Below, in pieces: positions 6,593 through 44,237 of a stretch of 64,000 nt of DNA. Source of the stretch: Rhizomonospora bruguierae (GTDB lineage Bacteria > Actinomycetota > Actinomycetes > Mycobacteriales > Micromonosporaceae). Both the position numbers and the translations under genes were made by a program. The notes beneath the pieces were generated by a model that saw only the letters and a program-made list of their open reading frames with translations, made no database searches and was not told the DNA's origin. The first letter of the stretch is position 1. Each line of letters begins with the position of its first letter. The DNA is taken from the NCBI RefSeq assembly GCF_018397995.1, contig NZ_BBQH01000010.1, positions 356,987 to 420,986 of the forward strand, in the 5' to 3' direction.

Positions 6593-7285
6593 GTGGTAGC
6601 CCCCATCGGGGACGAGCAGAGGCTGGACCGGCCGCCTGCCGCAGCCGGCAGACCCGAGCACGGGCCGCCGGTCGGCGACGGGGGCGGGTGGGTGGCGCAG
6701 CAGGTCACCCGGCTCCTGCCCCGTCCCACCGGTAGGCACCGGTCCCCCGCGGCGATGCGGTGGTGGCCCCCGCCGATCTCCGCCACCTGGCTGCGGGAGT
6801 GGTGGATCGCCCTGGTGTCGGCCGCGGCGATCGTGATCACCATCCTGGTCGTCGCCGTGGCGCTGGCGAGCAGCGGGTCGCCGGCCACGACGACGACGGC
6901 CGGGTCCTCCCCGACCGAGGCGCCGGTGGCCACCACCGCCGACGACGAGGAGCCGGACGAGGAGACCCCGCCCCCGCCCGAGCCCACCGCGCGGAGCACC
7001 ACCACGCCGCCACCGCCCCGCGCCACCGCGACCCGGCCCGTCGGGCCGCAGCTCACCGGCCGGCTCGCCCGCTTCGCCACCGGGGTCCAGCAGCAGGTCG
7101 CCGCGGGCAACCTGGCCGCCGACGCCGGGCGCGACCTGCTGCGACAGGTTTACGACCTGGCCGCGCGGTCGGACCGCGGCAACGGCAGGGGAAGGCTGCG
7201 CGAACTCGACCGCCGGCTCAACGAGCTGCGCCGGGAGGGGAAGCTGAACCGGGCGGGTTACGAGGCGCTCAGCGCGCTCACCTGA
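6593..7285 (+). CDS. Single-pass membrane protein of unknown function
   Basis: 230 residues from GTG 6593, preceded by AGAGGA; the reading frame is open far upstream but only as shadow of the opposite strand. A cytoplasmic N-terminus of about 60 residues with Pro, Gly and Arg leads to one membrane helix near residues 68-92 (WWIALVSAAAIVITILVVAV). Next comes a low-complexity Thr/Pro/Glu linker (about 95-145) and a charged helical C-terminal domain of about 75 residues (FATGVQQQVAAGNLAADAG...). The C-terminal domain resembles, as I recall it, the extracytoplasmic tail found after the membrane helix in some Micromonospora-type Ser/Thr kinases, but no kinase domain is present. Function unknown. 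Confidence 0.7.
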   Translation: MVAPIGDEQRLDRPPAAAGRPEHGPPVGDGGGWVAQQVTRLLPRPTGRHRSPAAMRWWPPPISATWLREWWIALVSAAAIVITILVVAVALASSGSPATTTTAGSSPTEAPVATTADDEEPDEETPPPPEPTARSTTTPPPPRATATRPVGPQLTGRLARFATGVQQQVAAGNLAADAGRDLLRQVYDLAARSDRGNGRGRLRELDRRLNELRREGKLNRAGYEALSALT

Positions 7286-7353
7286 CGGGGCCGGGCGGGC
7301 GATCCGCGCCCGATCGTGCCCGCTCCCCCACCCCCGCTGACTACGGTCGGGGG

Positions 7354-7941
7354 ATGCCCACCAGACGCATGGAGGCGTTCAGCGACGCGGTCATCGCGAT
7401 CCTGATCACCGTCATGGTGCTGGGGTTGCGCGTGCCGCACGGCACCACCTGGTCGGCGGTCGCGGACTCGGGGCCGGTCCTGCTGTCGTACGTGCTGAGC
7501 TTCGTCTACCTGGGCATCTACTGGAACAACCACCATCACATGCTCATGCTGACCGAGCGGGTGAACGGGCTGGTGCTCTGGGCCAACCTGCACCTGCTGT
7601 TCTGGCTGTCGCTCATCCCGTTCACCACCGGGTGGCTGGGCGAGAACCGGTTCGCCGCGACGCCCGCGGCCGCCTACGGCATCGTGCTGCTGGCCGCGGC
7701 GGTGGCGTACTTCGGGCTGCGGACCGCCATCATCCGCGAGCAGGGCGCGTCGTCCAAGCTCGCGAAGGCGTTCGGCCGCGACCTCAAGGGAAAGGCGTCG
7801 CCGCTGTTCTACCTGCTCGGGATCGTGCTGGCCGCCGTGAACCGGTGGCTCTCGCTGGCGGTCTACGTCGCGGTCGCCCTCTGGTGGCTGGTGCCGGACC
7901 GGCGGGTCGAGCGGGCGGTCGCCGGCGCCTCACAACCCTGA
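7354..7941 (+). CDS. TMEM175-family potassium channel-like membrane protein
   Basis: 195 residues from ATG 7354. The first helix begins RRMEAFSDAVIAILITVMVL, matching the R-x-x-x-F-S-D-A signature that lines the pore of bacterial TMEM175 potassium channels. About six hydrophobic segments follow, including VLLSYVLSFVYLGIYWNNHHH, which is the second conserved block. Bacterial members are tetramers of such six-helix subunits and conduct K+ across the cytoplasmic membrane. Length fits the family (about 200). It stands 68 bp downstream of the single-pass protein on the same strand and converges with the CoA-transferase gene. Family call is strong; conductance is known for some homologues only. Confidence 0.88.
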   Translation: MPTRRMEAFSDAVIAILITVMVLGLRVPHGTTWSAVADSGPVLLSYVLSFVYLGIYWNNHHHMLMLTERVNGLVLWANLHLLFWLSLIPFTTGWLGENRFAATPAAAYGIVLLAAAVAYFGLRTAIIREQGASSKLAKAFGRDLKGKASPLFYLLGIVLAAVNRWLSLAVYVAVALWWLVPDRRVERAVAGASQP

Positions 7942-7999
7942 TCCGCCCATCGCACCCCCCGCCGGCACCGCACCCACCGGCGCCCCGGGCCCAGCCGGA

Positions 8000-9220
8000 T
8001 CAGCCGATCACGCCGCGCCGGGCCAGGTCGGAGATCTCCTCCGCCGAGAGTTCCAGCTCGCCGGCGAGAATCTCCCGGGTGTGCGAGCCGAACGCCCGAC
8101 CCGAGTGGCGGATCCGGCCGGGGGTCCGGGAGAGGCGAAACAGCACGTTGGGCATCCGCGCCCGCCCGAACTCGTCGTCGGGGACGGGGGTGAAGATCTC
8201 CCGTTCCCGGCTGTGCGGGTCGTTCACGAGCTGCGCGATGTCGTAGACCGGCGAGCCGGCCACGCCTTCCCGCTCGAACGCGGCGACGACCTCGTCGAGC
8301 GTGCGCGCCCCGACCCACTCCTGGACGTACCCGTCGAGCAGGTCGGCGTGCGCGGCGCGCTGGTATCCCCGGGAGAACCAGGGCTCGTCGATGACCTCGG
8401 GGTGCCCGACCAGCCGCATCAGGCGTTCCGCGATCGAGGTGGCGCTGGAGGAGAGCGCGACCCACCGCCCGTCCTTCGTCAGGTAGGTGTTGCGCGGGGC
8501 GTTGCTCGTCGACCGGTTGCCGGAGCGCTTGTTGACGACGCCGAGCCGGTCGTAGCCGATCGACTCCGGGCCGAGCGTCGCCGTCATGGTCTCCAGAATG
8601 GACAGGTCGATGACCTGGCCCTCCCCGCCCCGCGCGTCGCGCGCGTACAGGGCGGTGAGTACCGCCGCGAACCCGCTGATCCCGGCGATCGAGTCGGCGA
8701 GGCCGAACGGCGGAAGCGTCGGCGGCCCGTCGGGTTGGCCGGTCAGGTGGGCGAAGCCGCTCATCGCTTCGATCAGCGTGCCGAACGCGGGCCGACGGGC
8801 GTACGGGCCGGTCTGCCCGAAGCCGGTCATCCGGAGCAGGATCAGGCCGGGGTTGGCGGCCCGCAACCGCTCCCAGCCGAGCCCGTACCGCTCCAGGGTG
8901 CCCGGCCGGAACCCCTCGATCAGCACGTCGAACCGCTCGACCAGGCGGAGCAGCAGCCCCGCCCCGGCCGGCTCGCCCAGGTCCAGGCCGAGGCAGCGCT
9001 TGTTGCTGCCGATCATCTTCCACCACAGCGAGTCGCCGTCCTCGCGGAGCCCGTGACTGCGCAGGGCGTCCCCGTGCGCCGGATGCTCGATCTTGACGAC
9101 ATCAGCGCCGAAGTCGCCGAGGAGCCTGCCCACGGTGGGCCCAGCGATCATGGTGGCCGCGTCGAGCACCCGGAGGCCGGCCAGCGGCCCGTCCGAAGTG
9201 GCCGGTGGCTCGCCGGTCAC
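8000..9220 (-). CDS. CaiB/BaiF-type (class III) CoA-transferase
   Basis: 406 residues from GTG 9220, overlapping the upstream stop as GTGA. The N-terminus GPLAGLRVLDAATMIAGPTVGRLLGDFGADVVKIE and the later GFRPGTLERYGLG and MTGFGQTGPY blocks are diagnostic of class III CoA-transferases. The catalytic Asp is expected in GLADSIAG. The enzyme moves CoA from an acyl-CoA donor to a free carboxylate, going through an aspartyl-CoA thioester. It is the last gene of the eight-gene minus-strand operon. With the citryl-CoA-lyase-like gene across the divergent promoter it suggests that the imported acid is activated to a CoA thioester before C-C cleavage. The actual acid is not identifiable. Confidence 0.9.
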   Translation of the reverse strand: MTGEPPATSDGPLAGLRVLDAATMIAGPTVGRLLGDFGADVVKIEHPAHGDALRSHGLREDGDSLWWKMIGSNKRCLGLDLGEPAGAGLLLRLVERFDVLIEGFRPGTLERYGLGWERLRAANPGLILLRMTGFGQTGPYARRPAFGTLIEAMSGFAHLTGQPDGPPTLPPFGLADSIAGISGFAAVLTALYARDARGGEGQVIDLSILETMTATLGPESIGYDRLGVVNKRSGNRSTSNAPRNTYLTKDGRWVALSSSATSIAERLMRLVGHPEVIDEPWFSRGYQRAAHADLLDGYVQEWVGARTLDEVVAAFEREGVAGSPVYDIAQLVNDPHSREREIFTPVPDDEFGRARMPNVLFRLSRTPGRIRHSGRAFGSHTREILAGELELSAEEISDLARRGVIG

Positions 9221-10650
9221 GCGGTTCCCCCCTCGCCGGCGGCCCGGGCGGCGATGGCGTGGGCGGCCGCCCGGCCGGACGTCAGCGCCCAGGTGAGGTG
9301 CAGGCCGTGGCCGAGCAGGAGCAGGCCACCCTGGCCCGCGGCGCCGGCGGCGAACAGTCCGGGTATCGGCGTCCCGTCGCCGGAGAGCACCCGCAGGTGG
9401 TCGTCGACCGCGAGGCTGCCCTCGGTCACGGTGACCACCGGCCGGGCGGGCCCGACCAGCACGTACGGCGGTTTCCACGACGGCCCGCCGGCCAGGTGCC
9501 CGGCGAGCCGCTCGGCGGGGACGCCGACCAGCGCGGCGACCGCCTCGACATCCCGCGCATCGCGCACCAGGTCGGGCCGGGCGGCGCGGTAGTCCGCGAG
9601 GCGGGCGAAGCCCATGGTCGGGGCGCTGGAGATCCGCCGGTCCGGGTACTCCCCGCCGGGCAGCCAGCGCGAGTCGAGCAGCAGATACGCGGTCCGGCTG
9701 GCGGTCGCCGCGACCCTGTCCACCGCCCCGGGTACGCGGATCAGTTCGCCGGTGTCCAGGATGAGCGCGGCGTCCTCGGCGGCCGGTGCCATGTACGCCC
9801 GCGGCATCGCCGCCCACCCCGAGGCGCGCACCTCGTCCGCGCCGCCGCCGGCCGGGCCGGGGATGACCCGGCCGGCCGCCTGGCCCGCGGTGAACAGCGC
9901 CGGGGACCACTCGTCCGCGGGCGGGCCGGTCCGGGCGACGAACCTCAACTGCGGCGCGAACGCGGTACCCATGTTCCGCCAGGCCGCGCCGACCGACCTG
10001 CCGAGGGCGAGGCCGTCACCGCGGCTGGTCGGGTTGACCGCCGGACTCGTCGCGGCCGCGGGCGTCAGGTACCGGGCCTTCAGGTCGTCGTTCGCGGCGA
10101 AGTCGCCGCAGGCCAGGACGGTCGCCACCCGGCCGCGCAGATCGACGCCGCCCGCGCGTACGCCCGCCACCCGGGCGCCGTGCCGAAGGAGGCGGGTGAC
10201 GCGGGCGCCACAGGTGATCGTGACGCCGAGCTGGTGGGCCCGCCGCAGCAGCCACCAGATGAAGGACCGGCCGTCGGGCGCCGTCGCGTACAGGCGCGGG
10301 CGGCGGTGGGGATGCTCCGGGTACGGCCCGGTGAGGGGCACGCCGAGGGCGCGCAGCCAGCCGAGCGTCTCGCCACTGGTCCGGGCGAGCAGGTGGCGAA
10401 GGTCCGCGGGGACCAGGTGGGCCGCGTCGGCGGGCAGGAACCGGGCCGTGTCGGCGAGGAAGTCCTCGATCGAGTCGTCGCCGTCCGGCGGCGGAAGGCA
10501 GACGCAGATGGAGCCGACCGCGTGGGCCGTCGTGCCGCCGGGACGGTCGTTCTGCTCGACCACGTGGCACGCCAGGCCGGCCTCGGCGAGGCTGACCGCG
10601 GCCGCCAGGCCGGCGGCGCCGGCCCCGACCACCACCACGTCGGGGTTCAT
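9217..10650 (-). CDS. FAD-dependent dehydrogenase (fumarate reductase/tricarballylate dehydrogenase-like)
   Basis: 477 residues, ATG 10650 overlapping the previous stop (ATGA). The N-terminus DVVVVGAGAAGLAAAVSLAEAG is the dinucleotide-binding fold, followed by VVEQNDRPGGTTAHAVG, the flavin-site block of the FAD_binding_2 family. The C-terminus has GLFAAGAAGQGGLLLLGHGLHLTWALTSGR, the usual ribityl-binding end. No Cys or heme domain is present, so it is the soluble flavoprotein form that reduces or oxidises a C-C bond of a carboxylic acid or steroid-like substrate. It pairs with a second, only distantly similar family member directly upstream; the two may act on successive bonds or form a heterodimer. 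Confidence 0.8.
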   Translation of the reverse strand: MNPDVVVVGAGAAGLAAAVSLAEAGLACHVVEQNDRPGGTTAHAVGSICVCLPPPDGDDSIEDFLADTARFLPADAAHLVPADLRHLLARTSGETLGWLRALGVPLTGPYPEHPHRRPRLYATAPDGRSFIWWLLRRAHQLGVTITCGARVTRLLRHGARVAGVRAGGVDLRGRVATVLACGDFAANDDLKARYLTPAAATSPAVNPTSRGDGLALGRSVGAAWRNMGTAFAPQLRFVARTGPPADEWSPALFTAGQAAGRVIPGPAGGGADEVRASGWAAMPRAYMAPAAEDAALILDTGELIRVPGAVDRVAATASRTAYLLLDSRWLPGGEYPDRRISSAPTMGFARLADYRAARPDLVRDARDVEAVAALVGVPAERLAGHLAGGPSWKPPYVLVGPARPVVTVTEGSLAVDDHLRVLSGDGTPIPGLFAAGAAGQGGLLLLGHGLHLTWALTSGRAAAHAIAARAAGEGGTA

Positions 10651-11981
10651 CGCGCGTCACCCCCGGACGCCACCGGCGACCGCCGGGCGGCGGCCGCGGC
10701 GGAGGCACCGGCCCGGCGCCCGCTGACCAGGGCCCAGGCGAGCCCGCCGGCGTAGGCGCCGTGGAACACCCCGCCCGCGTCCGCCCCGGCGGCGAAGAGC
10801 CCGGCCAGGTGCTCGCCGCCGGCGTCGACCAGCGCCCCGGACGGTTCGACGGCCAGCCCGCCGTACGGCAGCGTGATGGCCGCGACGCAGGCGACCGCGA
10901 CGAACGGTGGCGTCCTCAGGGGACTGAGCGGTCGGCTGCGGTGCGGCATCAGCTCGGCGTTCGCGAGGGTCTGGGCGAGCGTGGTGCCGGGTATCTTCCA
11001 CGCCTTCGCCATCGATTCGGTCAGGCCGACCAGCGAGTCCGCCGACAGCAGGATCTCGCCGCGCGGAACGCCGGCCCGATCGGCGATCCGTCCGATCAGG
11101 TCGATCGGGATCCGGTCGGCCCGGTCGCCGTCGCAGATCAGGTAGAAGGCGCCGCCGGGCTGGTACATCGCCGCCACGGCGTTCGTCTCCTCCACGACTC
11201 CGTCGGCCTCGTCGGTGAAGCGCCGCCCGTCCCGGTTGACCAGGATCGCGTCGGCCGCCGCGTTCAGCGTCGCCGCCTTGAACTCGGTCGGCTCCAGCAG
11301 GTCGGCATGCTTGGGCATGGTGTGCCCGTAGAAGTCCGCCATTCCCCGGCTGACCGTCCCGCCGGCCGCCAGTCCCATCCGCAGGCCGTCACCGGTGCAG
11401 GCCGGTGCGGAGCGCAGCATGAGGTGCCGGGCCTCGGGCCCCAGATACGAGCGGGTGAGTTCGGCGCCGCCCTGGAATCCGCCGGACGCCAGGACGACGG
11501 CTGTCGCATGCACCTCCCAGCCGGTGTCGTCGGCCAGGCGTACGCCGTGCGGGGTACGGGTGAGTGCGGTGACGCGGGACCGGTGGCGGATCTCGACGCC
11601 CAGGCCGCTCACCCGGTCAGCCAGCTCCTGGAGAAACGGCGTGCGGTCGCCGACGGCGCCGAGGCCCATCACCCGGCCCGTCCCGAGCCGGTCGGGTCGC
11701 TGCGCGGCCAGGGGAAGGCCGAGCCCGGCCAACCAGTCCAGGCCGGCCAGGAGGTCGGCGGCGAGCGCCGCCTGCAACCGGGCGTCGCCCAGCGGAACGC
11801 GGCGGCGCATCTCCGGCAGGTCGGTGAACGTCCAGATCCGGCCGGCCGACCAGCGGGCGGCCCCACCCACCCGGTCGGTCGCCTCCAGCAGCACGACCCG
11901 GGCGCCCGCCCCCGCGGCCGAAGCCGCGGCGCACAGCCCGGCCATCCCGCCGCCGACGACGATCACATCCGTCTGGTCCAT
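10647..11981 (-). CDS. FAD-dependent dehydrogenase (fumarate reductase/TcuA-like)
   Basis: 444 residues. ATG 11981 is chosen because it follows a perfect GGAGGG; an in-frame GTG-side extension of 11 residues is possible but lacks such a site. The FAD fold VIVVGGGMAGLCAAASAAGAGA and VVLLEATDRVGGAARWSAG mark an FAD_binding_2 dehydrogenase. Further family blocks are GSGD-like CTGDGLRMGLAAGG and the C-terminal GLFAAGADAGGVFHGAYAGG. Relatives include tricarballylate dehydrogenase and 3-ketosteroid dehydrogenases; this sequence does not decide between them. It follows the receptor gene after an intergenic hairpin and overlaps the next dehydrogenase, so the two dehydrogenases and CoA-transferase are a tight unit. 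Confidence 0.82.
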   Translation of the reverse strand: MDQTDVIVVGGGMAGLCAAASAAGAGARVVLLEATDRVGGAARWSAGRIWTFTDLPEMRRRVPLGDARLQAALAADLLAGLDWLAGLGLPLAAQRPDRLGTGRVMGLGAVGDRTPFLQELADRVSGLGVEIRHRSRVTALTRTPHGVRLADDTGWEVHATAVVLASGGFQGGAELTRSYLGPEARHLMLRSAPACTGDGLRMGLAAGGTVSRGMADFYGHTMPKHADLLEPTEFKAATLNAAADAILVNRDGRRFTDEADGVVEETNAVAAMYQPGGAFYLICDGDRADRIPIDLIGRIADRAGVPRGEILLSADSLVGLTESMAKAWKIPGTTLAQTLANAELMPHRSRPLSPLRTPPFVAVACVAAITLPYGGLAVEPSGALVDAGGEHLAGLFAAGADAGGVFHGAYAGGLAWALVSGRRAGASAAAAARRSPVASGGDAR

Positions 11982-12006
11982 GTGCCCTCCGATGTGCGGT
12001 GCGGGC

Positions 12007-12044
12007 GGCCCCACCGGCGTGCGGGGTGCGGGCGCCGGTGGGCC
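12007..12044 (-). terminator. Intra-operon hairpin downstream of the receptor gene
   Basis: The arms CCCACCGGCG (12010-12019) and CGCCGGTGGG (12033-12042) pair perfectly over 10 bp around a 13-nt loop. It sits between the receptor gene stop (12065) and the dehydrogenase start (11981). There is no U-run, so it may act as an mRNA stabiliser or attenuator giving more receptor than enzyme. Confidence 0.45.
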
Positions 12045-12064
12045 ACCGCTATGGTTCGGCCGAC

Positions 12065-13186
12065 TCAGTTACGCCAGTCGTATTCCTTGGCCATCTTCTC
12101 GATGGTCGCCCGGTCGAAGTCGTTGATCTCCTTGACCAGGTCGTTGGTGTAGAAGATCGAGGGGTCCTTGACCTTGTCGGCCGCGCCGGCGAACGCCACC
12201 TCGTTCGCCCACTCCTGCGGCCTGGTCTGGCCGGGCAGCAGGCTCGAGTCGGCCGGCAACTGGTTGGCCATCCGGTACTTCATGATCTTGACGAGGTTGG
12301 CCACCGCCTCCTCGCGTGGCTTGCCCTCGCCGGCCTCCGGGTGCCGGTCCAGGTAGATCGCCGCAGCCGCCTCCGGGTTCGCCAGGGCGAAGACGATGCC
12401 CTTGAGCGTGGCCCGCCCGAGCCCGACCACCATCGCCCGGTCGGACTCGATCGTGGACTTCTTGGTCTGCAGGTAGAACCCGCCGAGTTCCGACACACCC
12501 TCCGGCCGGGGCAGGACCCGGTAGGAGATGCCGGCCACGTCCCACTGGCCGCGGTAGGTGTCCCAGGTCAGCGCGGCGTCCACCTTGCTGTCCTGCACGG
12601 CGGTACCCATCGGCTCGCCGCCGCCGGTGACGGTGAGCTTGACCTTGTCCGGGTTCGCCCCCGCCAGCCGCAGCCACTCCCGCGCCACCAACTCGTCGGC
12701 GGTACCGAGGGCGGATATGCCCACGGATCTGCCCTCCAACTCGCGCAGCGACTGGATGGGTGAATCGGGCTTCACCGCGAAGTCCCACTTCATCGGGTAC
12801 GCGTACTCGAAGAAGTTGACGCCGGGCAGGGCGCCGTTCTTGGCGTAGTTGCTCACCTGGAAGCTGGGTGTGCCGGTGGCGAACTGCGCCCGGTCGCGGT
12901 CCAGTTCGGCGGTGGCCTGCGCGTTGCCTCCGGCGTGCTTGAACGACACCGACAGCCCCTCCTCCTTGTAGAAGCCCAGGTTGACGCCGATCTCCTGGAT
13001 CGCGAAGTGCGGTCCACCCGTGGTGGACCCGGTCGCGAAGACCACGTTCTTCAGGCTGCCGTCGCCGGCGCCCGAGCCGGTGTCGCCGCCCTGACTCTCG
13101 CTGAGGCAGCCGGTGACGGTGGACAGGGCGAGCGCGCCGGCCGCGACGACGATTAATCCGCGCCGGACGGAAACGGACTGGGGCAT
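12065..13186 (-). CDS. ABC transporter substrate-binding lipoprotein (NMT1/SsuA/TauA-like)
   Basis: 373 residues from ATG 13186, preceded by GGAGG seven bases upstream. A lipoprotein signal peptide ends in the lipobox STVTGC with Cys27 as the lipidation site, so it is tethered outside the membrane. The mature protein has GGPHFAIQEIGVNLGFYKEEGL and later GRSVGISALGTADELVAREWL, the hallmark of the NMT1/SsuA-like receptors of the taurine, sulfonate, nitrate and thiamine-precursor class. It is the only receptor for a transporter that has two different permease genes. Given the downstream enzymes, the ligand is probably a small carboxylic or aromatic acid rather than a sulfonate, because no monooxygenase is present. 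Confidence 0.88.
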   Translation of the reverse strand: MPQSVSVRRGLIVVAAGALALSTVTGCLSESQGGDTGSGAGDGSLKNVVFATGSTTGGPHFAIQEIGVNLGFYKEEGLSVSFKHAGGNAQATAELDRDRAQFATGTPSFQVSNYAKNGALPGVNFFEYAYPMKWDFAVKPDSPIQSLRELEGRSVGISALGTADELVAREWLRLAGANPDKVKLTVTGGGEPMGTAVQDSKVDAALTWDTYRGQWDVAGISYRVLPRPEGVSELGGFYLQTKKSTIESDRAMVVGLGRATLKGIVFALANPEAAAAIYLDRHPEAGEGKPREEAVANLVKIMKYRMANQLPADSSLLPGQTRPQEWANEVAFAGAADKVKDPSIFYTNDLVKEINDFDRATIEKMAKEYDWRN

Positions 13187-13225
13187 GGGAAACCTCCTGG
13201 ACGGGCCGGACGCCCGCGCGGTGGA

Positions 13226-14092
13226 CTATTCGGATGGGGCGAGGGTGGATTGCTGCGACCGTTCCGGCGCCCAGTAGATGAGGCGCCCGCGCAGCAGCCG
13301 GATGATGCCGTTGAGGACGACGCCGGTCATGGCGAGCAGGATGAGCGCGGCGAACATCGCGGCGGTGTTGCTGACCGCCTGGTACTGCTTGAGCAGGATG
13401 CCCATGCCCGCCTCGGCCGCGACGAACTCGCCGACGATCGCGCCGAGCAGCGCCTGGACCACCGCGATCTCCAGGCCCGCGAAGATCATGACGAGCGCGC
13501 CGGGCAGCCGCAGTTGCATGAGCGTCTGTAGTGGACCCGCGCGCAGCGCGGTGAACAGCCGCTCGTAGCCACGGTCTACAGTGGTTAGACCGGTGTAGGT
13601 GTTGACGAACATGGGAAAGAAGACCAGGAACGCGGCGAGCAGCGCCTTGGTCGTCAGCCCGAAACCGAACCAGATCATCAGCAGCGGGGCGATGGCCACC
13701 TTCGGCAGCCCCTGGAGCGCGAACACGTACGAGGACAGAAAGCCGTCGACAACCCGGCTCGAGGCGGCGAACACCCCGGCCAGGACCCCGAGCAGACCCC
13801 CGACCAGCAGGCCCAGGCCGGCCGCCCGGAAGGTGATGATCAGGTGGAAGACGAGGCTGACCCGGGAGTTGAGCGGGGCCGTGAGCCCCCGGTACAGGGC
13901 CTGGCCGACGTCCAGCGGCGCGGGCAGCAGGTACGGACGGATGTTGAAGATCTCGACCGCGACGTGCCAGAGGGCCACCAGCACGACCAGTCCGAGCAGG
14001 ACGGTGATCGGGGGCCGCAGGCGTTCGGGCAGCCGCCGCCGGGCCCGGCCGGCGCGTGGCCGGGCGCTCGCGGCGGCGTTCACCGCACTCAT
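13226..14092 (-). CDS. ABC transporter permease (SsuC/TauC type)
   Basis: 288 residues, ATG 14092 overlapping the aldolase stop as ATGA. A basic N-terminus is followed by six hydrophobic segments. The coupling loop reads LPKVAIAPLLMIWFGFGLTTKALLAAFLVFFP, and E-x-x-x-A-x-x-G-like VAAEAGMGILLKQYQ follows, both typical of BPD_transp_1 permeases of the taurine/nitrate class. It would form the membrane channel with the ATPase at 15051-15905. It is clearly related to, but not a recent copy of, the permease at 15909-16766 in the same operon, so the transporter may use a permease heterodimer. Confidence 0.88.
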   Translation of the reverse strand: MSAVNAAASARPRAGRARRRLPERLRPPITVLLGLVVLVALWHVAVEIFNIRPYLLPAPLDVGQALYRGLTAPLNSRVSLVFHLIITFRAAGLGLLVGGLLGVLAGVFAASSRVVDGFLSSYVFALQGLPKVAIAPLLMIWFGFGLTTKALLAAFLVFFPMFVNTYTGLTTVDRGYERLFTALRAGPLQTLMQLRLPGALVMIFAGLEIAVVQALLGAIVGEFVAAEAGMGILLKQYQAVSNTAAMFAALILLAMTGVVLNGIIRLLRGRLIYWAPERSQQSTLAPSE

Positions 14093-15054
14093 GACGCCCC
14101 GACACCGACCGGAACGCCGGCACCCACCAGACCCGCCCGCTTCAGCGCCTCGGCGATCTGCCCGGTGCGCTCGGCGTCCGGGCCCACGGCCGGGGGACGG
14201 ATCCGGTTGTTCGACAGCAGGCCCAACTGGACCAGCGCCTCCTTCGCCGCACCCACCGGGCTGATGTGCCCGGTCGGCTGTTGGTTCTCGTAGATCGCCT
14301 CGGTCAGCGGGAGGCAGCGCTGCTGGAACAGCCGGTGCGCCCCGGCCAGGTCGCCGGCCGCGGCCAGCTCGACCAGTTCGGCCCAGATCGGGGTGCCGAC
14401 CGAACTGACCCCGATCAGCGCGCCGTCGGCGCCGTGCATCAGCATCGAGATCAGCGGCGGGCCGTCCGAGGCGGCCAGGATGTCGACCTTGCCGGCCAGT
14501 CGGTGGTGCAGCGCGACGTAGTCGGTGATGTCCCGGGTGCCGGCCTTGACCGCGCGCACCGCGGGCAGGTCGACCAACCGCTCCAGCACGTCCAGCGGGT
14601 ACGCGATGCCGCTCGCCCGGTTGTACTGGAAGACGATCAGCGGCACGTCGACCGCGTCGGCGACCGCCCGGAAGTAGGTCAGCGCCGCCTCGGCGTGCCC
14701 GACCAGGGGGCGCAGGGGGCGGGCGTCGAACGGCGGGCAGACCAGCAGCGCGTCGGCGCCGGCGTCCACCGCCTCGCGGGCCGCGGTGGCCAGGGCCTTC
14801 GGCGTGCGCCCCTCGACGCCGGCGATCACGTGCTTGCCGGCCGGGGCGGCCGCCCGCGCCACCCGCACCACCTCGCGCCGCTCGGCCGCGTCGAGCATCA
14901 TCAGCTCGCCCATGTGCCCGCTGACCACCACGCCGGACACGCCCCGCGGTGTGCTGCTGTACTCGATCACCCGGCGGAGCGCCTCGGCGTCGACGGTGTC
15001 CGATTCGGTGAACGGCACCACCGTGGCCGGGTAGAGCCCGGAGAACGTGGTCAT
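14089..15054 (-). CDS. DHDPS/NAL-family aldolase (class I, Schiff-base)
   Basis: 321 residues, ATG 15054 overlapping the ATPase stop. The (beta/alpha)8 enzyme starts SGLYPATVVPFTESDTVD, the usual dihydrodipicolinate synthase family opening. The Schiff-base lysine is Lys170 in RAVKAGTRD and the catalytic tyrosine lies in VFQYNRASG. In DapA the block after that Tyr is YNVP; here it is YNRA, so it is unlikely to be lysine biosynthesis and more likely cleaves or forms a pyruvate-derived or aromatic-side-chain C-C bond. It sits inside a transport operon between ATPase and permease genes, which supports a catabolic role. Substrate unknown. Confidence 0.85.
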   Translation of the reverse strand: MTTFSGLYPATVVPFTESDTVDAEALRRVIEYSSTPRGVSGVVVSGHMGELMMLDAAERREVVRVARAAAPAGKHVIAGVEGRTPKALATAAREAVDAGADALLVCPPFDARPLRPLVGHAEAALTYFRAVADAVDVPLIVFQYNRASGIAYPLDVLERLVDLPAVRAVKAGTRDITDYVALHHRLAGKVDILAASDGPPLISMLMHGADGALIGVSSVGTPIWAELVELAAAGDLAGAHRLFQQRCLPLTEAIYENQQPTGHISPVGAAKEALVQLGLLSNNRIRPPAVGPDAERTGQIAEALKRAGLVGAGVPVGVGAS

Positions 15055-15905
15055 CGCAGGTACTCCTTCTTGTCGGTCCGGCCGGGTTCGGCCGGGTGCT
15101 CCTTCAGCAGGTCGCGCACCTGCGCGACACGGTCCCGGAAGTCCGCGGTGTCCACGACCGACGGGGTGCGGGGCCGGTCGAGGTCGACCGTGATGGTCTT
15201 GACGATCCGGCCCGGCCGCGGCGACATCACCACGATCTGGTCGCTCAGCAGGACCGCCTCGGAGATGTCGTGGGTGACCAGCACCACGGCCTTCCGCTCG
15301 ACCTCCCAGATCCGGGCGAGCTCCATGTTCATCCGCTCCCGGGTCATCGCGTCGAGGGCACCGAACGGCTCGTCCATCAGCAGCGTGCTCGGCCGCAGCA
15401 GCAACGACCGGGCGATCGCGGTGCGCTGTTGCATCCCGCCGGACAGCTCGTGCGGCAGGTACTTCTCGAACCCGGCCAGGCCGACCATCTCGATCAGCTC
15501 CTGGGCCCGCTCCCGCATCTCCGGCGAGAGCCGCTTGCCGATCTTCGCCGGTAGCAGCACGTTCTGCAGCACGTTCTTCCAGGGCAGCAGCACCGGGGAC
15601 TGGAAGACGATGCCCACGTCGTCGCGCGGGCCGGTCGACTCCTGCCCCCCGATGCGGATGCTGCCCCGGCTTGCCCGCTCCAGCCCTGCCATGATCATGA
15701 GCAGGGTGGTCTTGCCGCAGCCGCTGGGGCCGACCACGCTGACGAAGCGCTCGCGCCCGACGGTCATCGAGACGCCGTCCAGGGCGGTGACGGTGCCGCG
15801 CTTGGACTCGAAGGTCCGGGTCACCTGCTCGCAGACCAGGGTCGGTTCCCCGGCGTCCGGAGGCGCCCCGGGCCGGCTGATGGTGGACTTCGCCGAGTTG
15901 ACCAC
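15051..15905 (-). CDS. ABC transporter ATP-binding protein (SsuB/TauB type)
   Basis: 284 residues from GTG 15905, with GAGGT just upstream. Walker A is GPSGCGKTT, the signature LSGGMQQR, Walker B LLMDEPFGALD, and the switch histidine is in VTHDISEAVLLSDQ. MDEPFGALD plus VTHD-x-x-EA is the classic taurine/nitrate/sulfonate importer ATPase. It is the only ATPase in this operon and must drive both permeases. It ends in an ATGA junction with the aldolase gene, so transport and catabolism are co-translated. Confidence 0.9.
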   Translation of the reverse strand: MVNSAKSTISRPGAPPDAGEPTLVCEQVTRTFESKRGTVTALDGVSMTVGRERFVSVVGPSGCGKTTLLMIMAGLERASRGSIRIGGQESTGPRDDVGIVFQSPVLLPWKNVLQNVLLPAKIGKRLSPEMRERAQELIEMVGLAGFEKYLPHELSGGMQQRTAIARSLLLRPSTLLMDEPFGALDAMTRERMNMELARIWEVERKAVVLVTHDISEAVLLSDQIVVMSPRPGRIVKTITVDLDRPRTPSVVDTADFRDRVAQVRDLLKEHPAEPGRTDKKEYLR

Positions 15906-15908
15906 GAC

Positions 15909-16766
15909 CTACCTCTTATCTGTGTGCGAGGGGATCCAGAAGATGACCCGTTTCCTGCTGGCCTTGAGGACCCGGTAGAGCACGAACGAGCTGATGGCCA
16001 GCAGGATGAACACGGCGAACGCACCGGCGGTGTCGTTGACGTACTGGAAGCGGATCAGGATGATGCCCAGCCCGTTCTGGCCGGCCAGGAACTCCGCCAC
16101 CACGGCGCCCAACTGGGCCCGGACGATGCCCATCTCCAGGCCGGCGAAGACCGCCACCATGGCGGCCGGCAGCCGCAACTGGGACAGCATCTGCCAGCGA
16201 CTGGCGCTCATGCCCCGGAACAGCCGCAGGTAGGTGTCGTCCACATTGACCAGGCCCGTGTAGGCGTTGACGAAGACCGGGAAGAACACCAGCAGCGCCG
16301 CCAGGGTGATCTTCGTGGGGTTGCCGAAGCCGAGCCAGACCATCAGCAGTGGCGTCAGTGCCACCTTCGGCATGCTCTGCAGGCCGAACACGTACGGGCG
16401 GACCACCTGGTTGACCACCCGGTTCATCGCGCACAGGCCGCCGAGCACGATTCCGGCGCCACTGCCGAGGGCGAACCCCGCGAGCGCCGCCGAGGTGGTG
16501 TGCCACAGGTGGGGCAGGTAGCTGTCGCGGTCGCTCGGGGCGACGGTCATGCCGTGCCACAGCGCCTTCGCCACGTCCATCGGAGCCGGCAGCATGTATC
16601 CGGGCACGCTGCCGAAGACCACCACGAGTTGCCAGAGCAGGACGAACACCACGGCTGCCGCGATCACGTAGCGGGGATCCCCGCGGCGGCGGGCCGAGCC
16701 GGCGGACCGCCGTACGGTCCGGCGGCGGGCCGCGGGGGCCGGCGCGGGGGCTTGCAGGGTCGTCAC
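15909..16766 (-). CDS. ABC transporter permease (SsuC/TauC type), first gene of the operon
   Basis: 285 residues. The start is placed at GTG 16766, seven bases after GGGAG, instead of the longer open frame beginning at 16859 whose first 31 residues look like shadow sequence. Six hydrophobic segments and the coupling loop SMPKVALTPLLMVWLGFGNPTKITLAALLVFFP place it in the taurine/nitrate permease class. It begins the long minus-strand operon that runs to 8000, and faces the plus-strand citryl-CoA-lyase-like gene. Together with the second permease at 13226-14092 it would make the membrane part of the importer. Confidence 0.88.
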   Translation of the reverse strand: MTTLQAPAPAPAARRRTVRRSAGSARRRGDPRYVIAAAVVFVLLWQLVVVFGSVPGYMLPAPMDVAKALWHGMTVAPSDRDSYLPHLWHTTSAALAGFALGSGAGIVLGGLCAMNRVVNQVVRPYVFGLQSMPKVALTPLLMVWLGFGNPTKITLAALLVFFPVFVNAYTGLVNVDDTYLRLFRGMSASRWQMLSQLRLPAAMVAVFAGLEMGIVRAQLGAVVAEFLAGQNGLGIILIRFQYVNDTAGAFAVFILLAISSFVLYRVLKASRKRVIFWIPSHTDKR

Positions 16767-17004
16767 AGTGCTTCTCCCGTCGTGCCTACGCGGGGTGGAT
16801 GACCGGGCTCGATACGCGGAGGTGAACAACGGGGCCGACGCCGCCGCCATCCGGTCCACCTATCAGTCAGTCCTATGGTTAACTAGATGAGCGGATGCTA
16901 GGCTCCGATCACACCGCCGTCAACAGCCCGAGCGGAACTCGCACCATCCGGTCCCTCGGAACCCCCGGCGGTACAGCAGCGACCCCGACGAGAGACGGGT
17001 GCCC
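16767..17004. promoter_or_regulatory. Divergent promoter region of the catabolic island
   Basis: A gap of about 240 bp between the two divergent transcription units, in a GC-rich setting but with a conspicuous A+T-rich patch at about 16860-16890. Within it GGTTAAC sits at 16877-16883, centred on the palindrome GTTAAC (16878-16883), with a CAGTCAGTC tandem just before. This is the best place for an operator of the GntR regulator encoded at 17795-18619. No clear -10/-35 pair could be assigned. Confidence 0.4.
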
Positions 17005-17787
17005 ATGTCCATACCCCAGCCCCCCTGGCACACCGCCCTGACCAGCACGGGGCCCGGCGGCGTATTCGTCCGCGGCCGGCCGGTCGCCGACCTGATGCGG
17101 GCCGGCAGCTTCGTCGCCACCCTGCTGCTGCTGTGGACCGGGCGCCGGCCGCCGGCCGCCGACGTCGAACTCGTCGAAACCTGCCTGATCGCCTGCGTGG
17201 ATCACGGCGCGGTGACCCCGTCCGCACTGGCCACCCGGACCGCCGCCTCGACCGGCAACCGCCCCCTCCCCAGCGCGGCTACCGGGCTACTGGCCACCGG
17301 TCCGCTGCACGGGGCGGCCGTCACCGCCTGCGCCGAACTCCTGGCCGCCGCTCCCCCCACCGACCTCGACCGCTGGGCCGAGGAGACGGTGGACCGGGTC
17401 CGCCGGCGGGGCGGGCGGGTGCCCGGCCTCGGTCACCGCTGGCACCGCGAGGACCCCCGCACCGCCGTCATCGTCGACCTGCTGGCCGCGCAGAACCGGG
17501 GCCACGCGCCGGTCGCCGCGGCACAGGCGCTCGCTCGGGCCCTGTCCCGGCGGACCGGCAAGCACCAGTGCGTCAACGTGGACGGCGGGTTGGCGCTCGC
17601 GGTGGTCACGATCGGGTTGCCCGCCCCGTTCGGCGACTGCCTGTTCGGCCTGGCCCGGCTCGGTGGACTCAGCGCGCACGCCGTCGAGGAGTCCACCCGG
17701 CAACGCCCGATGCGGGTCATCGAACCGGAACTGGTCCGGTACGACGGGCCGGCGGTGCAGTCGGCCACCCCAGAGAAGGTCTGCTGA
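17005..17787 (+). CDS. Citryl-CoA lyase-like protein (short citrate synthase superfamily)
   Basis: 260 residues from ATG 17005, nine bases after GAGAG; GTG 16999 two codons upstream is an alternative. Blocks seen are LIACVDHGAVTPSALATRTAAS, GPLHGAAVTACAELL, RVPGLGHRWHREDPR and NVDGGLALAVV, which contain the superfamily's histidines and CoA-site residues. At about 260 residues it lacks the large domain parts of real citrate synthase (about 430). It therefore matches stand-alone citryl-CoA lyases that split a citryl-CoA-like thioester into acetyl-CoA and a keto acid. Paired with the CoA-transferase of the divergent operon it implies an activate-then-cleave route. It lies 7 bp before the GntR gene. 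Confidence 0.72.
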   Translation: MSIPQPPWHTALTSTGPGGVFVRGRPVADLMRAGSFVATLLLLWTGRRPPAADVELVETCLIACVDHGAVTPSALATRTAASTGNRPLPSAATGLLATGPLHGAAVTACAELLAAAPPTDLDRWAEETVDRVRRRGGRVPGLGHRWHREDPRTAVIVDLLAAQNRGHAPVAAAQALARALSRRTGKHQCVNVDGGLALAVVTIGLPAPFGDCLFGLARLGGLSAHAVEESTRQRPMRVIEPELVRYDGPAVQSATPEKVC

Positions 17788-17794
17788 ACCTACA

Positions 17795-18619
17795 ATGGAC
17801 ATCGTGAATCGCCCACCCGGGGCCGACCTCGCGCGCGACAACCCAATGCCGCTGTATTACCAGATCGCGAACGTGCTCCGCAGCCGCATTGATACCGGAG
17901 AATGGGTAGTCGGCGACCGGCTCCCGTCCGAGGCGCAGTTGGCCGCCTCGTTCAAGGTCAGCGTCGTGACCATGCGCCAGGCACTCAGCCTGCTGGAGCA
18001 GCAGGGCCGGCTCAGCCGCCAGCAGGGCAAGGGAACCTTCGTCACGGCCACGGAGGAGCCCACCGACCGGGTGCGCATCACCGTTCCGCTGGAACTGGTC
18101 TCCGAGGCCGTCGCCGGCCTGGACGTGCGCGCGCTCGGGGTGACCGAGGTGGTCCCGCCGACCGACATCCGCACGACCCTCGGGCTGGAACCGGGCGAGC
18201 CGTGCGTGCAGGTGCGCCGGGTCCGCTCCGGCACCCGCGGGCCGATCACCTTCGCCACCTCCTACCTGCCGCGTTGGCTGGGCGAGGGGCTCACCATGGC
18301 AGACCTCCAGCAGTCGATGATGATCGACATCCTGGAGAAACGCGGCGTGCACTTCCACGGCGCGATCCAGACCATCGAGGCCGCCCTGGCCGAGCCGGAC
18401 ACCGCCGCCGTCCTCAGCGTGCCGGTCGGCGCGCCCATCCTGCTGGTGCGCCGGATCTACGAACTGGAGGACGGCCGGGTCGGGTACGTCGCGCTGAACC
18501 GCCACCCCAGCCACGAGATCCGGTACGAGCTGCGACTCAGCCGGGGCGAGGCGGACGGCGGCCGGTGGGCACTACCCGACCCGCGCGGCGAACCACGGCA
18601 GGACACCGGCACCGGCTGA
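17795..18619 (+). CDS. GntR-family regulator, HutC subfamily
   Basis: 274 residues from ATG 17795. The N-terminal winged helix is PLYYQIANVLRSRIDTGEW, LPSEAQLAASFKVSVVTMRQALSLLEQQG and RQQGKGTFV, standard for GntR proteins. The following domain (about 85-245) with PGEPCVQVRRVRSG and PILLVRRIYELEDGRVGYVALNRHP is the UTRA ligand-binding fold of the HutC subfamily. It is co-transcribed with the citryl-CoA-lyase-like gene and diverges from the transport/catabolic operon, so it most likely senses the pathway substrate or an intermediate and represses both units through the 16767-17004 region. A Pro/Asp-rich tail follows. Confidence 0.9.
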   Translation: MDIVNRPPGADLARDNPMPLYYQIANVLRSRIDTGEWVVGDRLPSEAQLAASFKVSVVTMRQALSLLEQQGRLSRQQGKGTFVTATEEPTDRVRITVPLELVSEAVAGLDVRALGVTEVVPPTDIRTTLGLEPGEPCVQVRRVRSGTRGPITFATSYLPRWLGEGLTMADLQQSMMIDILEKRGVHFHGAIQTIEAALAEPDTAAVLSVPVGAPILLVRRIYELEDGRVGYVALNRHPSHEIRYELRLSRGEADGGRWALPDPRGEPRQDTGTG

Positions 18620-18653
18620 CGCCACCGCTTGCCGCCTCGCGCCGAGGGAGCCG

Positions 18654-18693
18654 GTGCGGGCCGGGCCGGTCGCTCGGCCGACCCGACCCGCAC
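18654..18693. terminator. Bidirectional hairpin terminator between convergent genes
   Basis: Arms at 18654-18669 and 18678-18693 pair at 14 of 16 positions (two C-A mismatches). It lies between the ends of the GntR gene (18619, plus) and the sugar-receptor gene (18703, minus). No strong U-run, as usual in GC-rich actinomycetes. Confidence 0.6.
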
Positions 18694-18702
18694 GCGCCCG
18701 GC

Positions 18703-19668
18703 TCACTTGTACAGCACGGCCTGGATCTCGGGCTTGTCGATGTTGGTCTTGTCGTACCAGTAGAAGCCCGTGTCGATGGTCTTCGGCAGGGACTTGCCGT
18801 TGATCGCGTCCACGGCGGCCTTGACGAGCGCGGCCCCCATGCCGACCGGGTTCTGGGTGATGGCCCCGGCCATGACGCCGTTGCTGATCGCGTCGATCTG
18901 GGCCTGCCCGGAGTCGAAGCCGACGACCGCGATGCCCTGCTTGCCGCTCTCCTCGATGCCCTTGACGACGCCGATGGCGGAGCCCTCGTTGGCGCCGTAG
19001 ATGCCCTTGACGTCCGGGTTGGCGCGCAGGATCGACTTGGTGATGTCGGCGGACTTGGCCTGGTCGCCACCGCCGTACTGGACGGGCAGGATCTGGACCC
19101 CGGGCGCGTTGGCCGTCATCCAGTCGATGAAGCCGTCGCGCCGGTCGCGGCCGGTGACGCTGGTCTGGTCGTGCACGACCAGGGCCACCTTGCCCGCGCC
19201 GCCGATCAGCTCCGACATGTGCTTGGCCGCCTCGCCGGCGGCGGCCTTGTTGTCGGTCGCGGCCGTGGTGAGGGGGACCTCGCTGTCGACGCCCGAGTCG
19301 AAGGCGATCACGGGGATGTTGGCGGACCTGGCCTGCTGCATCAGCGGCGCGGCGGCCTTGCTGTCCAGGGCGGCGAAGCCAATCGCGTCGGGCTTCTTGG
19401 CCAGCGCGTTGGTGAGCATCGTCGTCTGGGCCTCGATGTCCGCCTCGGTGGCCGGGCCCTCGAAGGTGATGCGCACGCCCTGCCGGGCGGCCTCCTCCTC
19501 GGCCCCCTTCTTCACGGCCTGCCAGAACTGGTGCTGAAAGCCCTTGGAGACGATGGCGACGTACGGCTTCTTGGCGCCGCCGGAGTCGGAGCCGCCGGAG
19601 TCGCCGCACCCGGAGACGAGCAGCAGGGCGGCGGCCGCCAGGGCGGCGAGTGTGCGGGTTCTGGTCAT
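18703..19668 (-). CDS. Sugar ABC transporter substrate-binding lipoprotein (RbsB type)
   Basis: 321 residues from ATG 19668, preceded by AAGGAG. The signal peptide ends at lipobox LVSGC with Cys21. The mature domain is a type I periplasmic-binding fold: YVAIVSKGFQHQFWQAVKKGAEEEA, then ADIEAQTTMLTNALAKKPDAIGFAALD, IPVIAFDSGVDS, and NEGSAIGVVKGIEES with VVGFDSGQAQIDAI, all in the ribose-binding order. It is the receptor of the RbsABC-like importer encoded upstream on the same strand. It is distal in the gene order ATPase-permease-receptor. The linked L-fuconate dehydratase points to a deoxy-sugar or sugar acid, for instance fucose-like, rather than ribose. Confidence 0.9.
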   Translation of the reverse strand: MTRTRTLAALAAAALLLVSGCGDSGGSDSGGAKKPYVAIVSKGFQHQFWQAVKKGAEEEAARQGVRITFEGPATEADIEAQTTMLTNALAKKPDAIGFAALDSKAAAPLMQQARSANIPVIAFDSGVDSEVPLTTAATDNKAAAGEAAKHMSELIGGAGKVALVVHDQTSVTGRDRRDGFIDWMTANAPGVQILPVQYGGGDQAKSADITKSILRANPDVKGIYGANEGSAIGVVKGIEESGKQGIAVVGFDSGQAQIDAISNGVMAGAITQNPVGMGAALVKAAVDAINGKSLPKTIDTGFYWYDKTNIDKPEIQAVLYK

Positions 19669-22349: not shown

Positions 22350-23636
22350 TCACGCCTGCCCCGGGAACCGGTAACGCTCGACGGACTCCATCAGCATCTC
22401 GGCACCGGACCCGGGCACCGAGGGCGCGATGTACCGTCCATTGCGGACCTGTACCGGCGCCGCGAAGTGTTCGTGCAGGTGGTCGACGTACTCGATCATC
22501 CGGTCCTCGGCCGTGCCCGAGACCGCCACGAGGTCGAACATCGCCAGGTGCTGCACCATCTCGCACAGGCCGACGCCGCCCGCGTGCGGGCAGACCGGGA
22601 CGCCGAACTTCGCGGCCAGCAACAGCATGGCGATGTTCTCGTTGACCCCGGACACGCGCGTCGCGTCGAGTTGCAGCACGCCGACCCCGCCGGCCTGGAG
22701 GAACTGTTTGGCCATGACCCGGTTCGCCATGTGCTCCCCCGTCGCCACCGGGATCGGGGCGATGGCGCGGGCGATGGCGGCGTGGCCCAGCACGTCGTCC
22801 GGGTTGGTCGGCTCCTCCACCCAGGCGACGCCGAACGGCGCGAGCGCCGCCACCCAGTCGACCGCCTCGGCCACCTCCCAGCGCTGGTTGGCGTCCACCG
22901 CGATGCGCACGTCCGGCCCGACGGTGTCGCGGGCGATCCGCAGGCGGCGCACGTCCTCCCGCCGGTCGGCGCCCACCTTCACCTTGATCTGGGTGAAACC
23001 GTCCGCGACCGCCTCGCGGCAGAGCCGGGCGAGCTTGCCGTCGTCGTAGCCGAGCCAGCCCGGGCTGGTGGTGTAGGCGGGGTAGCCGGCGCGGAGCAGC
23101 CACGCCTGCCGATCGGCCCGGTCCGGCTCGGCCGCCGCCAGGATCTTCAGCGCCTCGTCCCTGGTGAGGGCGTCGCTGAGGTACCGGAAATCGACCAGGT
23201 CGACGATCTCGGTCGGGGTCAGCCCCGCCAGCAGCCGCCACAGCGGCAGCCCGGCCCGCTTGGCCCTGAGGTCCCACAGGGCGTTGACGACGGCGCCGAC
23301 GGCCATGTGCATCACCCCCTTCTCCGGGCCGAGCCAGCGCAACTGCGAGTCGTGCACCAGCCGGCGCCAGAACCCGCCGAGGTCGTCCAGCAGCGCCTCG
23401 GCGTCCTGGCCGACGACGTACGGCGCCAGGCTGCGGATCGCGGCGACCTGCACGTCGTTACCGCGACCGATCGTGAACACGAAGCCGTGGCCGGCGTGCC
23501 CGTCCCCGGCGTCGGTCCGCAGCCGCAGGTAGGCCGCCGAGTAGTCCGGGTCGGGGTTCATCGCGTCCGAGCCGTCGAGGAATCGGGAGGTCGGAAACCG
23601 GACGTCGTGCGTGTCCATCGCGATGACGCGGCTCAC
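22350..23636 (-). CDS. L-fuconate dehydratase-like enzyme (enolase superfamily, mandelate racemase group)
   Basis: 428 residues from GTG 23636, eight bases after GGAGG. The early block [26 protein letters not shown] and [15 protein letters not shown] are typical of L-fuconate dehydratases (bacterial FucD, human ENOSF1). The catalytic K-x-K is Lys218/Lys220 in QIKVKVG; Mg ligands are in [16 protein letters not shown] and TGEHMANR; the catalytic His is in CPHAGGVG. It converts L-fuconate to 2-keto-3-deoxy-L-fuconate. The other L-fucose oxidative enzymes (dehydrogenase, lactonase, aldolase) are not in this window, so the pathway must be finished elsewhere. It leads the sugar transporter operon. 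Confidence 0.85.
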
Positions 23637-42023: not shown

Positions 42024-42055
42024 GACCTTCCTCCTTGAACGGCGAGGGACGGCGG

Positions 42056-42826: not shown

Positions 42827-42839
42827 CTGCCCTCCCACC

Positions 42840-44012: not shown

Positions 44013-44237
44013 TGGTTCCCTCCATGCCGCGGCACCGGGCTCGCGCTGCTGTCGGTCAGGGATCGAGGCATCTGGCCGGAATTCGCCCGGCCATCCGCGC
44101 GCTGGCGCGTCGCGGAGAACCCTCACCCGCATCCTGCGGCCCGGCCGGCGCGGAGCCCATCGAATCAGATCGATTCCGTCAGCTCTGCGACACTCCGTCA
44201 AGTCGCGCCGCGCCTATCGGGGTGCGACGCCGACGGT
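44013..44237 (-). promoter_or_regulatory. Leader region of the 3-hydroxyanthranilate cassette
   Basis: A 225-bp gap between the IS701-like gene (ends 44238) and the DAHP synthase start, both minus strand. It should hold a promoter of the cassette unless this is driven from 45458 upward. AATCAGATCGATTC at about 44163-44176 is a near-palindrome in an otherwise GC-rich stretch. No certain -10/-35. Confidence 0.3.

Follow-up and report, generated by a model that had tools for sequence, protein, structure and literature searches.

Locus and proposed function

Which acid would a bacterium degrade with an ABC importer, two flavoproteins, a protein of the DHDPS family, a CaiB-type coenzyme A (CoA) transferase and a short protein with the citrate-synthase fold? 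This question is raised by a ten-gene locus of Rhizomonospora bruguierae, which occupies positions 8000-18619 of a 64,000-nucleotide stretch of contig NZ_BBQH01000010.1; the whole analysed stretch is referred to here as the window, and the coordinates of its genes refer to it. Based on gene assignment and comparative genomics, we consider the locus to be a real, intact and rare catabolic island in which the enzyme families are known and their combination is new. The reading that we prefer, with a probability of about 45%, is that the island is controlled by its GntR/UTRA regulator and serves the catabolism of a branched di- or tricarboxylic acid, which would be cleaved to acetyl-CoA and a 2-oxo acid. 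CoA transfer and cleavage are the best supported part of the mechanism, and the substrate would fall into the citramalate, methylsuccinate, tricarballylate or citrate-analogue class.

CoA transfer and cleavage

The CoA-transferase gene (8000-9220, minus strand; 406 amino acids) has a GTG start that overlaps the stop of the neighbouring flavoprotein gene, and its product matches PF02515 (CoA_transf_3) over the full length (profile positions 1-366; 366 bits), which places it among the CaiB/Frc-type (family III) CoA-transferases. It scored below the cut-offs of the named equivalogs, i.e., the succinate-glutarate, mesaconate, oxalate and carnitine transferases (216.6 bits against a cut-off of 750 at best). 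The short citrate-synthase-fold protein of the citryl-CoA-lyase type, hereafter the lyase (17005-17787, plus strand; 260 amino acids), matches PF00285 (Citrate_synt; 122 bits) at profile positions 145-355 of 357, i.e., the C-terminal part. Like short citryl-CoA lyases of the PRK06224 type, it has the citrate-synthase fold without the N-terminal part together with the His/His/Asp catalytic residues, and its best match in the PDB was the citryl-CoA lyase 6hxp (E 1.9e-29). H67, H102, H144, R152, D193 and R218 were invariant across seven aligned sequences. Judged by its fold and residues, the protein is best read as a predicted lyase for a substrate of the citryl-CoA type.

The two genes were repeatedly found together in other genomes. 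A search for the lyase in the host family returned a list of the best 30 loci, 29 of them non-self, and a CaiB match was present in 22 of these 29 short loci (flanks of about 1.5 kb). When 20 of the 29 were read wider (up to 20 kb), 18 contained a CaiB match; of the two misses, L040 is located at a contig end, and the homolog in L053 is a weaker one. A count of the CaiB genes in five of these genomes gave 3-9 per genome (E <= 1e-20), which corresponds to about 0.013 CaiB genes expected per 20 kb, and the 18 loci share ancestry within one family and are not independent. This is the neighbourhood check that a preliminary description of the locus had proposed, and its main idea, CoA loading followed by C-C cleavage, is supported by the outcome. 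A function that combines a CoA-transferase with a C-C lyase can be considered the part of the prediction that is supported from outside the window. No paper on the pairing of CaiB and citryl-CoA lyase was found among the papers listed in searches of the open-licence PMC literature.

Moreover, a tree of 37 CaiB proteins, which was repeated with three more rows, placed the window protein in a clade of six members with a support of 98/92 (values given from 98/92 to 99/92). The rows included 16 lyase-linked proteins (13 of the 18 from the host family, plus those of Agrobacterium vitis, of a Streptomyces plasmid and of a second pair in genome G218) and 20 others, and five of the ten further CaiB genes of the host genome were represented. 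Besides the window protein, the clade comprises a paralog from the same genome and proteins from G023 and G082 of the same family (58% identity to the window CaiB each), from G565 (51%) and from A. vitis (45%). A CoA-ester lyase gene lies within 10 kb at five of the six loci. In three of them, which come from three different bacterial groups, it has the citrate-synthase fold: the window, G565 and A. vitis. On pAvCG78a of A. vitis, the CaiB gene overlaps a citryl-CoA-lyase gene (39-41% identity to the window lyase) by one base, and the locus also holds a TctABC importer, an isocitrate-lyase/PEP-mutase-family gene and a GntR gene. In G565, which belongs to another family, the CaiB gene and a 37% identical lyase are about 6 kb apart (L080; contig 244, 9.7 kb); a 3-hydroxyacyl-CoA dehydrogenase and an amidohydrolase are encoded between them. 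At the locus of the host paralog (L108; contig 14, 54000-73900), CaiB overlaps an MmgE/PrpD gene by 4 nt, an HpcH/HpaI CitE-like lyase gene is convergent with it at a distance of 36 nt, and a TctABC importer is encoded on the same strand. Hydantoinase-like, isochorismatase, thiolase-like and cyclase genes are also present at this locus, as are two further CaiB genes and an additional NMT1 receptor. In G023, a gene of the HMG-CoA-lyase family is located about 4 kb from the CaiB gene. This pattern, which was noticed post hoc and covers six loci, points to a putative clade function of the type 'activate, then cleave'. The class of branched polycarboxylates is favoured because of these nearest CaiB neighbourhoods, i.e., TctABC in A. 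vitis and L108, and MmgE/PrpD with a CitE-like lyase in L108.

Several observations weigh against the polycarboxylate reading. Among six further lyase loci from other families and phyla (L079-L084), a CaiB match was present at only two, and three of these contigs are shorter than 10 kb. At one of the loci without a match (L079; genome G704, contig 7, 3225-6453; phylum of A. vitis), the lyase homolog comes immediately after a citryl-CoA-synthetase-like pair, one protein with ATP-grasp and citrate-binding parts and one with CoA-binding and CoA-ligase parts. The lyase-linked CaiB proteins that are common in the host family form a different clade, with 30-35% identity to the window protein. In G023, the HMG-CoA-lyase-type gene adjoins another CaiB gene (40%) and not the 58% one, and in G082 no lyase was recognised among the 10 scanned of 13 called neighbouring open reading frames (ORFs). 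The window lyase itself stayed under the cut-off of every listed citryl-CoA-lyase model (best NCBIfam score 139.6 against 212 bits), unlike the homologs from A. vitis (222.3 bits) and L036, which pass such a cut-off. Its branch is long (1.92 changes per site) and had no supported position in a tree from which the outgroup L003, having no match, was left out. The first catalytic His is followed by HGA in the window lyase alone and by HGG in the other 15 of 16 sequences. Additionally, H67 is replaced by Ala in the G704 protein, so this residue is not universal, and the Pfam scan revealed no hydratase gene among the ten. Because it scores below the cut-offs, has a long, unplaced branch and carries HGA instead of HGG, the window lyase likely acts on a substrate that is shifted relative to that of a plain citryl-CoA lyase.

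Flavoproteins, DHDPS-family protein and importer

The two flavoproteins, FAD1 and FAD2, both belong to the FAD_binding_2 family. FAD2 (9217-10650, minus strand; 477 amino acids; PF00890, 122 bits) matches mainly in the FAD-binding part. FAD1 (10647-11981, minus strand; 444 amino acids from a likely ATG at 11981, the ORF opening at 12014; PF00890, 135 bits) can be aligned along flavocytochrome c fumarate reductase, with the arginine of the GRRFTDE motif retained. Against the proposed oxidation, it is without His and Arg at two of the three fumarate-reductase active-site positions, namely those of His504 and Arg545. For both proteins the top curated model was TcuA, with 162 bits for FAD1 and 104 bits for FAD2 against a cut-off of 369. 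Since both are far below this value, their description as an established tricarballylate dehydrogenase was rejected. A flavoprotein match of the TcuA/fumarate-reductase type (about 30%) was found in two CaiB-lyase loci, L049 and the Rhodococcus plasmid locus L056. The candidates named earlier, tricarballylate- and citramalate-like polycarboxylates, fared unevenly: the branched-polycarboxylate class is favoured by the CaiB neighbourhoods, while an oxidation of the tricarballylate type is not proven by flavoproteins that score below the TcuA cut-off.

The flavoproteins also bear on a different explanation, in which the acid that is degraded has no relation to citrate and is, e.g., cyclic or aromatic; they would then be ring or side-chain dehydrogenases, CaiB would just activate the acid, and the lyase beside the regulator would be a separate unit. 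Models of 3-oxosteroid and 4-oxocyclohexanecarboxylate dehydrogenases were indeed among the listed flavoprotein matches, all of them below the cut-off, and NMT1 receptors presumably serve many ligand types. The lyase gene belongs to another transcription unit, which is divergent from the operon and lies about 8 kb away from CaiB; this speaks for this alternative and against the polycarboxylate reading. It is opposed by the CoA-ester lyase genes at five of the six CaiB-clade loci, and none of the ten genes was assigned to a ring-cleaving or beta-oxidation family. On balance, we regard an unrelated acid as rather unlikely.

The DHDPS-family (class I lyase) protein (14089-15054, minus strand; 321 amino acids) has the PF00701 barrel (127 bits) and keeps the Schiff-base Lys. 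As a further point against the polycarboxylate pathway in its complete form, most canonical DHDPS residues are changed: GHMGE replaces GTTGE, the Tyr position is occupied by Phe and a Tyr follows two residues downstream, and the residue at the Arg138 position is not Arg. The canonical Thr-Thr, Tyr and Arg positions and their numbering are those of the DHDPS literature. With these residues largely absent, a pyruvate-aldolase step, which the preliminary description had included, could not be upheld as proven, and aldolase activity of this protein is not assured by its sequence.

The importer consists of permease 1 (15909-16766, minus strand, from a likely GTG start at 16766, the ORF opening at 16859), an ATPase (15051-15905, minus strand; PF00005, ABC_tran, 108 bits), permease 2 (13226-14092, minus strand) and an NMT1/THI5-type substrate receptor (12065-13186, minus strand; PF09084, 72 bits). 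The two permeases match PF00528 (BPD_transp_1) with 95 and 92 bits and are 47% identical to each other. The nearest plasmid homolog of the receptor is encoded on Azospirillum p3 (38% identity over 82%), where its operon also encodes a DHDPS-family protein, a four-carbon acid sugar kinase, PdxA and an iron alcohol dehydrogenase; three further plasmid relatives (H58, H59 and H61) have other gene neighbours.

A DHDPS-family aldolase is part of some L-fucose routes, and because of this a link to the genes next door was retained as an alternative. Beyond the regulator gene, the segment 18703-23600 (minus strand) holds the genes of an RbsB/RbsC/RbsA-type sugar importer and, behind them, that of an L-fuconate dehydratase, i.e., a partial L-fucose route beside the island. 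The importer and the DHDPS-family protein of the island could serve this route, with 2-keto-3-deoxy-L-fuconate being cleaved to pyruvate and lactaldehyde by the DHDPS-family protein. The dehydratase gene (about 22350-23600), which is located some 7 kb past that of the DHDPS-family protein, matches L-fuconate dehydratases of solved structure with E of about 1e-188, and the Azospirillum operon, with its DHDPS-family gene, four-carbon acid sugar kinase and PdxA, is in line with a sugar acid. However, both ends of the DHDPS-family gene overlap with importer genes of the island operon, its product is just 27% identical over 225 amino acids to the Azospirillum protein, and the changed Thr-Thr, Tyr and Arg positions speak against the cleavage. 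The flavoproteins, CaiB and the lyase would also be left unexplained, and we consider the sugar-acid route very unlikely.

Proposed pathway

In the polycarboxylate reading, the NMT1-type ABC importer would import the acid, and one or both FAD_binding_2 enzymes may desaturate its saturated form or a precursor. The CaiB-type transferase would then move CoA from acetyl-CoA or succinyl-CoA to the acid, and the lyase would perform a retro-Claisen cleavage of the resulting 3-hydroxyacyl-CoA to acetyl-CoA and a 2-oxo acid. Depending on the substrate, the latter would be pyruvate (from citramalyl-CoA), oxaloacetate (from citryl-CoA) or 2-oxoglutarate (from homocitryl-CoA). In the weakest step, the DHDPS-family protein might handle the 2-oxo acid product or a by-product. 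We infer the substrate class, the order of the steps, the CoA donor and the ligand of the regulator. Of the full pathway outlined earlier, CoA loading and cleavage are supported; an oxidation of the tricarballylate type, with both flavoproteins below the TcuA cut-off, and the aldolase step, with most canonical residues changed, are not proven.

With acetyl-CoA as the donor, the CaiB-lyase pair would recycle its own CoA and function like a citrate lyase that lacks the acyl-carrier prosthetic group. A more far-reaching version, which we think unlikely, would be a self-priming, prosthetic-group-free citrate-lyase-like system in which CaiB and the citrate-synthase-fold lyase split a citrate analogue to acetate (or acetyl-CoA) and a 2-oxo acid, the two flavin dehydrogenases feed it from a saturated tricarboxylate, and unrelated lyase folds serve in the sister loci. 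If true, this version would be a polycarboxylate catabolic pathway that has so far been assigned to this gene set in no bacterium. Under the polycarboxylate reading, a concrete function that can be tested is proposed for a CaiB clade and for its repeated genomic neighbours, the short proteins of the citryl-CoA-lyase type, and naming the substrate would also name the acid pool that is used by such bacteria.

Operon structure and regulation

All ten genes had Pfam/NCBIfam matches to the families that had been assigned to them initially; eight are encoded on the minus strand and two, divergent from these, on the plus strand. The minus-strand operon, with overlaps at most junctions and a spaced receptor gene, was likewise confirmed. 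Overlaps of 4 nt occur at four of the seven junctions (CaiB/FAD2, FAD2/FAD1, permease 2/DHDPS and DHDPS/ATPase), the ATPase and permease 1 genes are 3 nt apart, and spacers of 39 nt before and 83 nt after it (the latter up to the likely FAD1 start) flank the receptor gene. Compared with the longest ORFs, four starts were revised. The ATG at 11981 for FAD1 and the GTG at 16766 for permease 1 are the most likely ones, being preceded by GGAGG and GGGAG, respectively, and the ATG at 17005 for the lyase and at 17795 for the regulator are likely. The set is bounded by convergent genes: a plus-strand gene that ends at 7941 and a minus-strand RbsB-type gene that ends at 18703. The former (6760-7941) encodes a TMEM175-type potassium channel protein and converges on the CaiB gene.

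The second plus-strand gene (17795-18619) encodes a GntR-family regulator (PF00392, 67 bits) with a UTRA (HutC-type) ligand domain (PF07702, 87 bits). A sigma-70-like promoter site for the operon (TTGACG-17-TAGCAT; 16895-16923, minus strand) was identified as a consensus match only; two such sites were found in 7900-18720, compared with 0.2 expected in shuffles, and the second lies inside a gene on the other strand. Just downstream of the promoter-like site is the palindrome GTTAAC (16878-16883), the sole GTTAAC in the 64-kb window. By its position and symmetry, we would guess that the region around it (16875-16888, unstranded) is a putative, weak candidate for a GntR operator.

Distribution of the gene set

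The host genome (6.7 Mb, 182 contigs) is the sole representative of its genus among 354 genomes of the family. Five marker genes (the lyase, the DHDPS-family protein, FAD1, the receptor and FAD2) were sought in 150-398 genomes each; every search scored the best few candidates per genome, and the strict E limits miss distant relatives. The lyase had at best a 38% identical match (E 1.7e-35) in 353 other genomes of the family, five matches at E <= 1e-26 in 295 other genomes of the phylum (the best being the 37% one of G565) and two at E <= 1e-30 in 398 genomes of the A. vitis phylum, namely A. vitis and G704. No match was obtained for the DHDPS-family gene in 295 other genomes (limit E <= 1e-55), for the receptor in 235 others (E <= 1e-50) or for FAD2 in 235 others from the phylum (E <= 1e-45). 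FAD1 had one match in 150 other genomes (G403, 36%), whose 20-kb neighbourhood adds just an ATPase match. Weak contig scans with the lyase alone gave 53 pattern matches and no relative, and those with a two-sequence lyase alignment gave two loci, from two peptide patterns. Megablast of the island against plasmids returned six records, in none of which a matching piece exceeded 207 bases.

Because the five marker searches gave no same set, the island looks rare and locally assembled, and the ten genes as a conserved pathway were rejected. The preliminary description had named two outcomes that would speak against it: genes that are not kept together in other genomes, or a characterised homologous cluster with a known substrate. 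The first is what the five markers yielded, as no second copy of the set was detected with them, CaiB itself having been sought in a few genomes only. No cluster of the second kind was found in the literature and database searches made.

The missing second copy, together with the long lyase branch, would also fit a chance or decaying assembly of transferred genes that do not form one pathway. This is opposed by the intact frames and the strong codon-position signal of all ten genes (GC at the third codon position of 0.91-0.96, in a window with a GC of 0.69-0.81 per 2 kb), by the four 4-nt overlaps and by the retained catalytic residues of the lyase, and such an assembly appears quite unlikely to us.

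Other features of the window lie farther away. The segment 28732-38160 encodes an AMP-binding ligase, a polyketide-cyclase-like protein, a zinc alcohol dehydrogenase, a pyridine-nucleotide oxidoreductase and a molybdopterin oxidoreductase. At 39427-44132, a 799-amino-acid protein that joins chorismate-binding and glutamine amidotransferase domains and a class-II DAHP synthase may mark the start of a shikimate-derived natural-product cluster, which is presumably phenazine-like.

Comparison with known systems

Tricarballylate utilisation resembles the island in that, among curated models, both flavoproteins score best against TcuA and differs from it in that their scores, 162 and 104 bits, remain far from the cut-off of 369; presumably, none of the ten genes resembles the partners TcuB and TcuC. 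The citryl-CoA synthetase/citryl-CoA lyase system (6hxp type) shares the fold, length and catalytic residues of the window lyase. In contrast to it, CoA would be loaded in the window by a CoA-transferase and not by an ATP-dependent synthetase, and the lyase is below the curated cut-offs.

Itaconate/methylsuccinate clusters (Ict-Ich-Ccl) hold a CoA transferase, MmgE/PrpD and an (S)-citramalyl-CoA lyase, and in C. necator a further citramalyl-CoA-lyase homolog is located beside a CoA transferase (PMC12290011). They share with the island the combination of a CoA-transferase and a CoA-ester lyase that leads to acetyl-CoA and a 2-oxo acid, and they are resembled by the host locus L108 with its CaiB, MmgE/PrpD and CitE-like lyase (PMC12290011). 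Unlike these clusters, the window has a citrate-synthase-fold lyase in place of a CitE-like one, two FAD_binding_2 proteins and a DHDPS-family protein, and no acyl-CoA dehydrogenase. The island does not belong to them: the CoA transferase is present, and none of the ten genes belongs to a hydratase family or to HpcH/HpaI.

The cluster on pAvCG78a of A. vitis differs in its TctABC importer and its isocitrate-lyase/PEP-mutase-family enzyme, and no flavoprotein or DHDPS-family gene is among its annotated neighbours. It is similar to the island in having a GntR gene and the closest lyase that was found (39-41%), whose gene overlaps that of a CaiB protein (45%) from the same clade as the one in the window.

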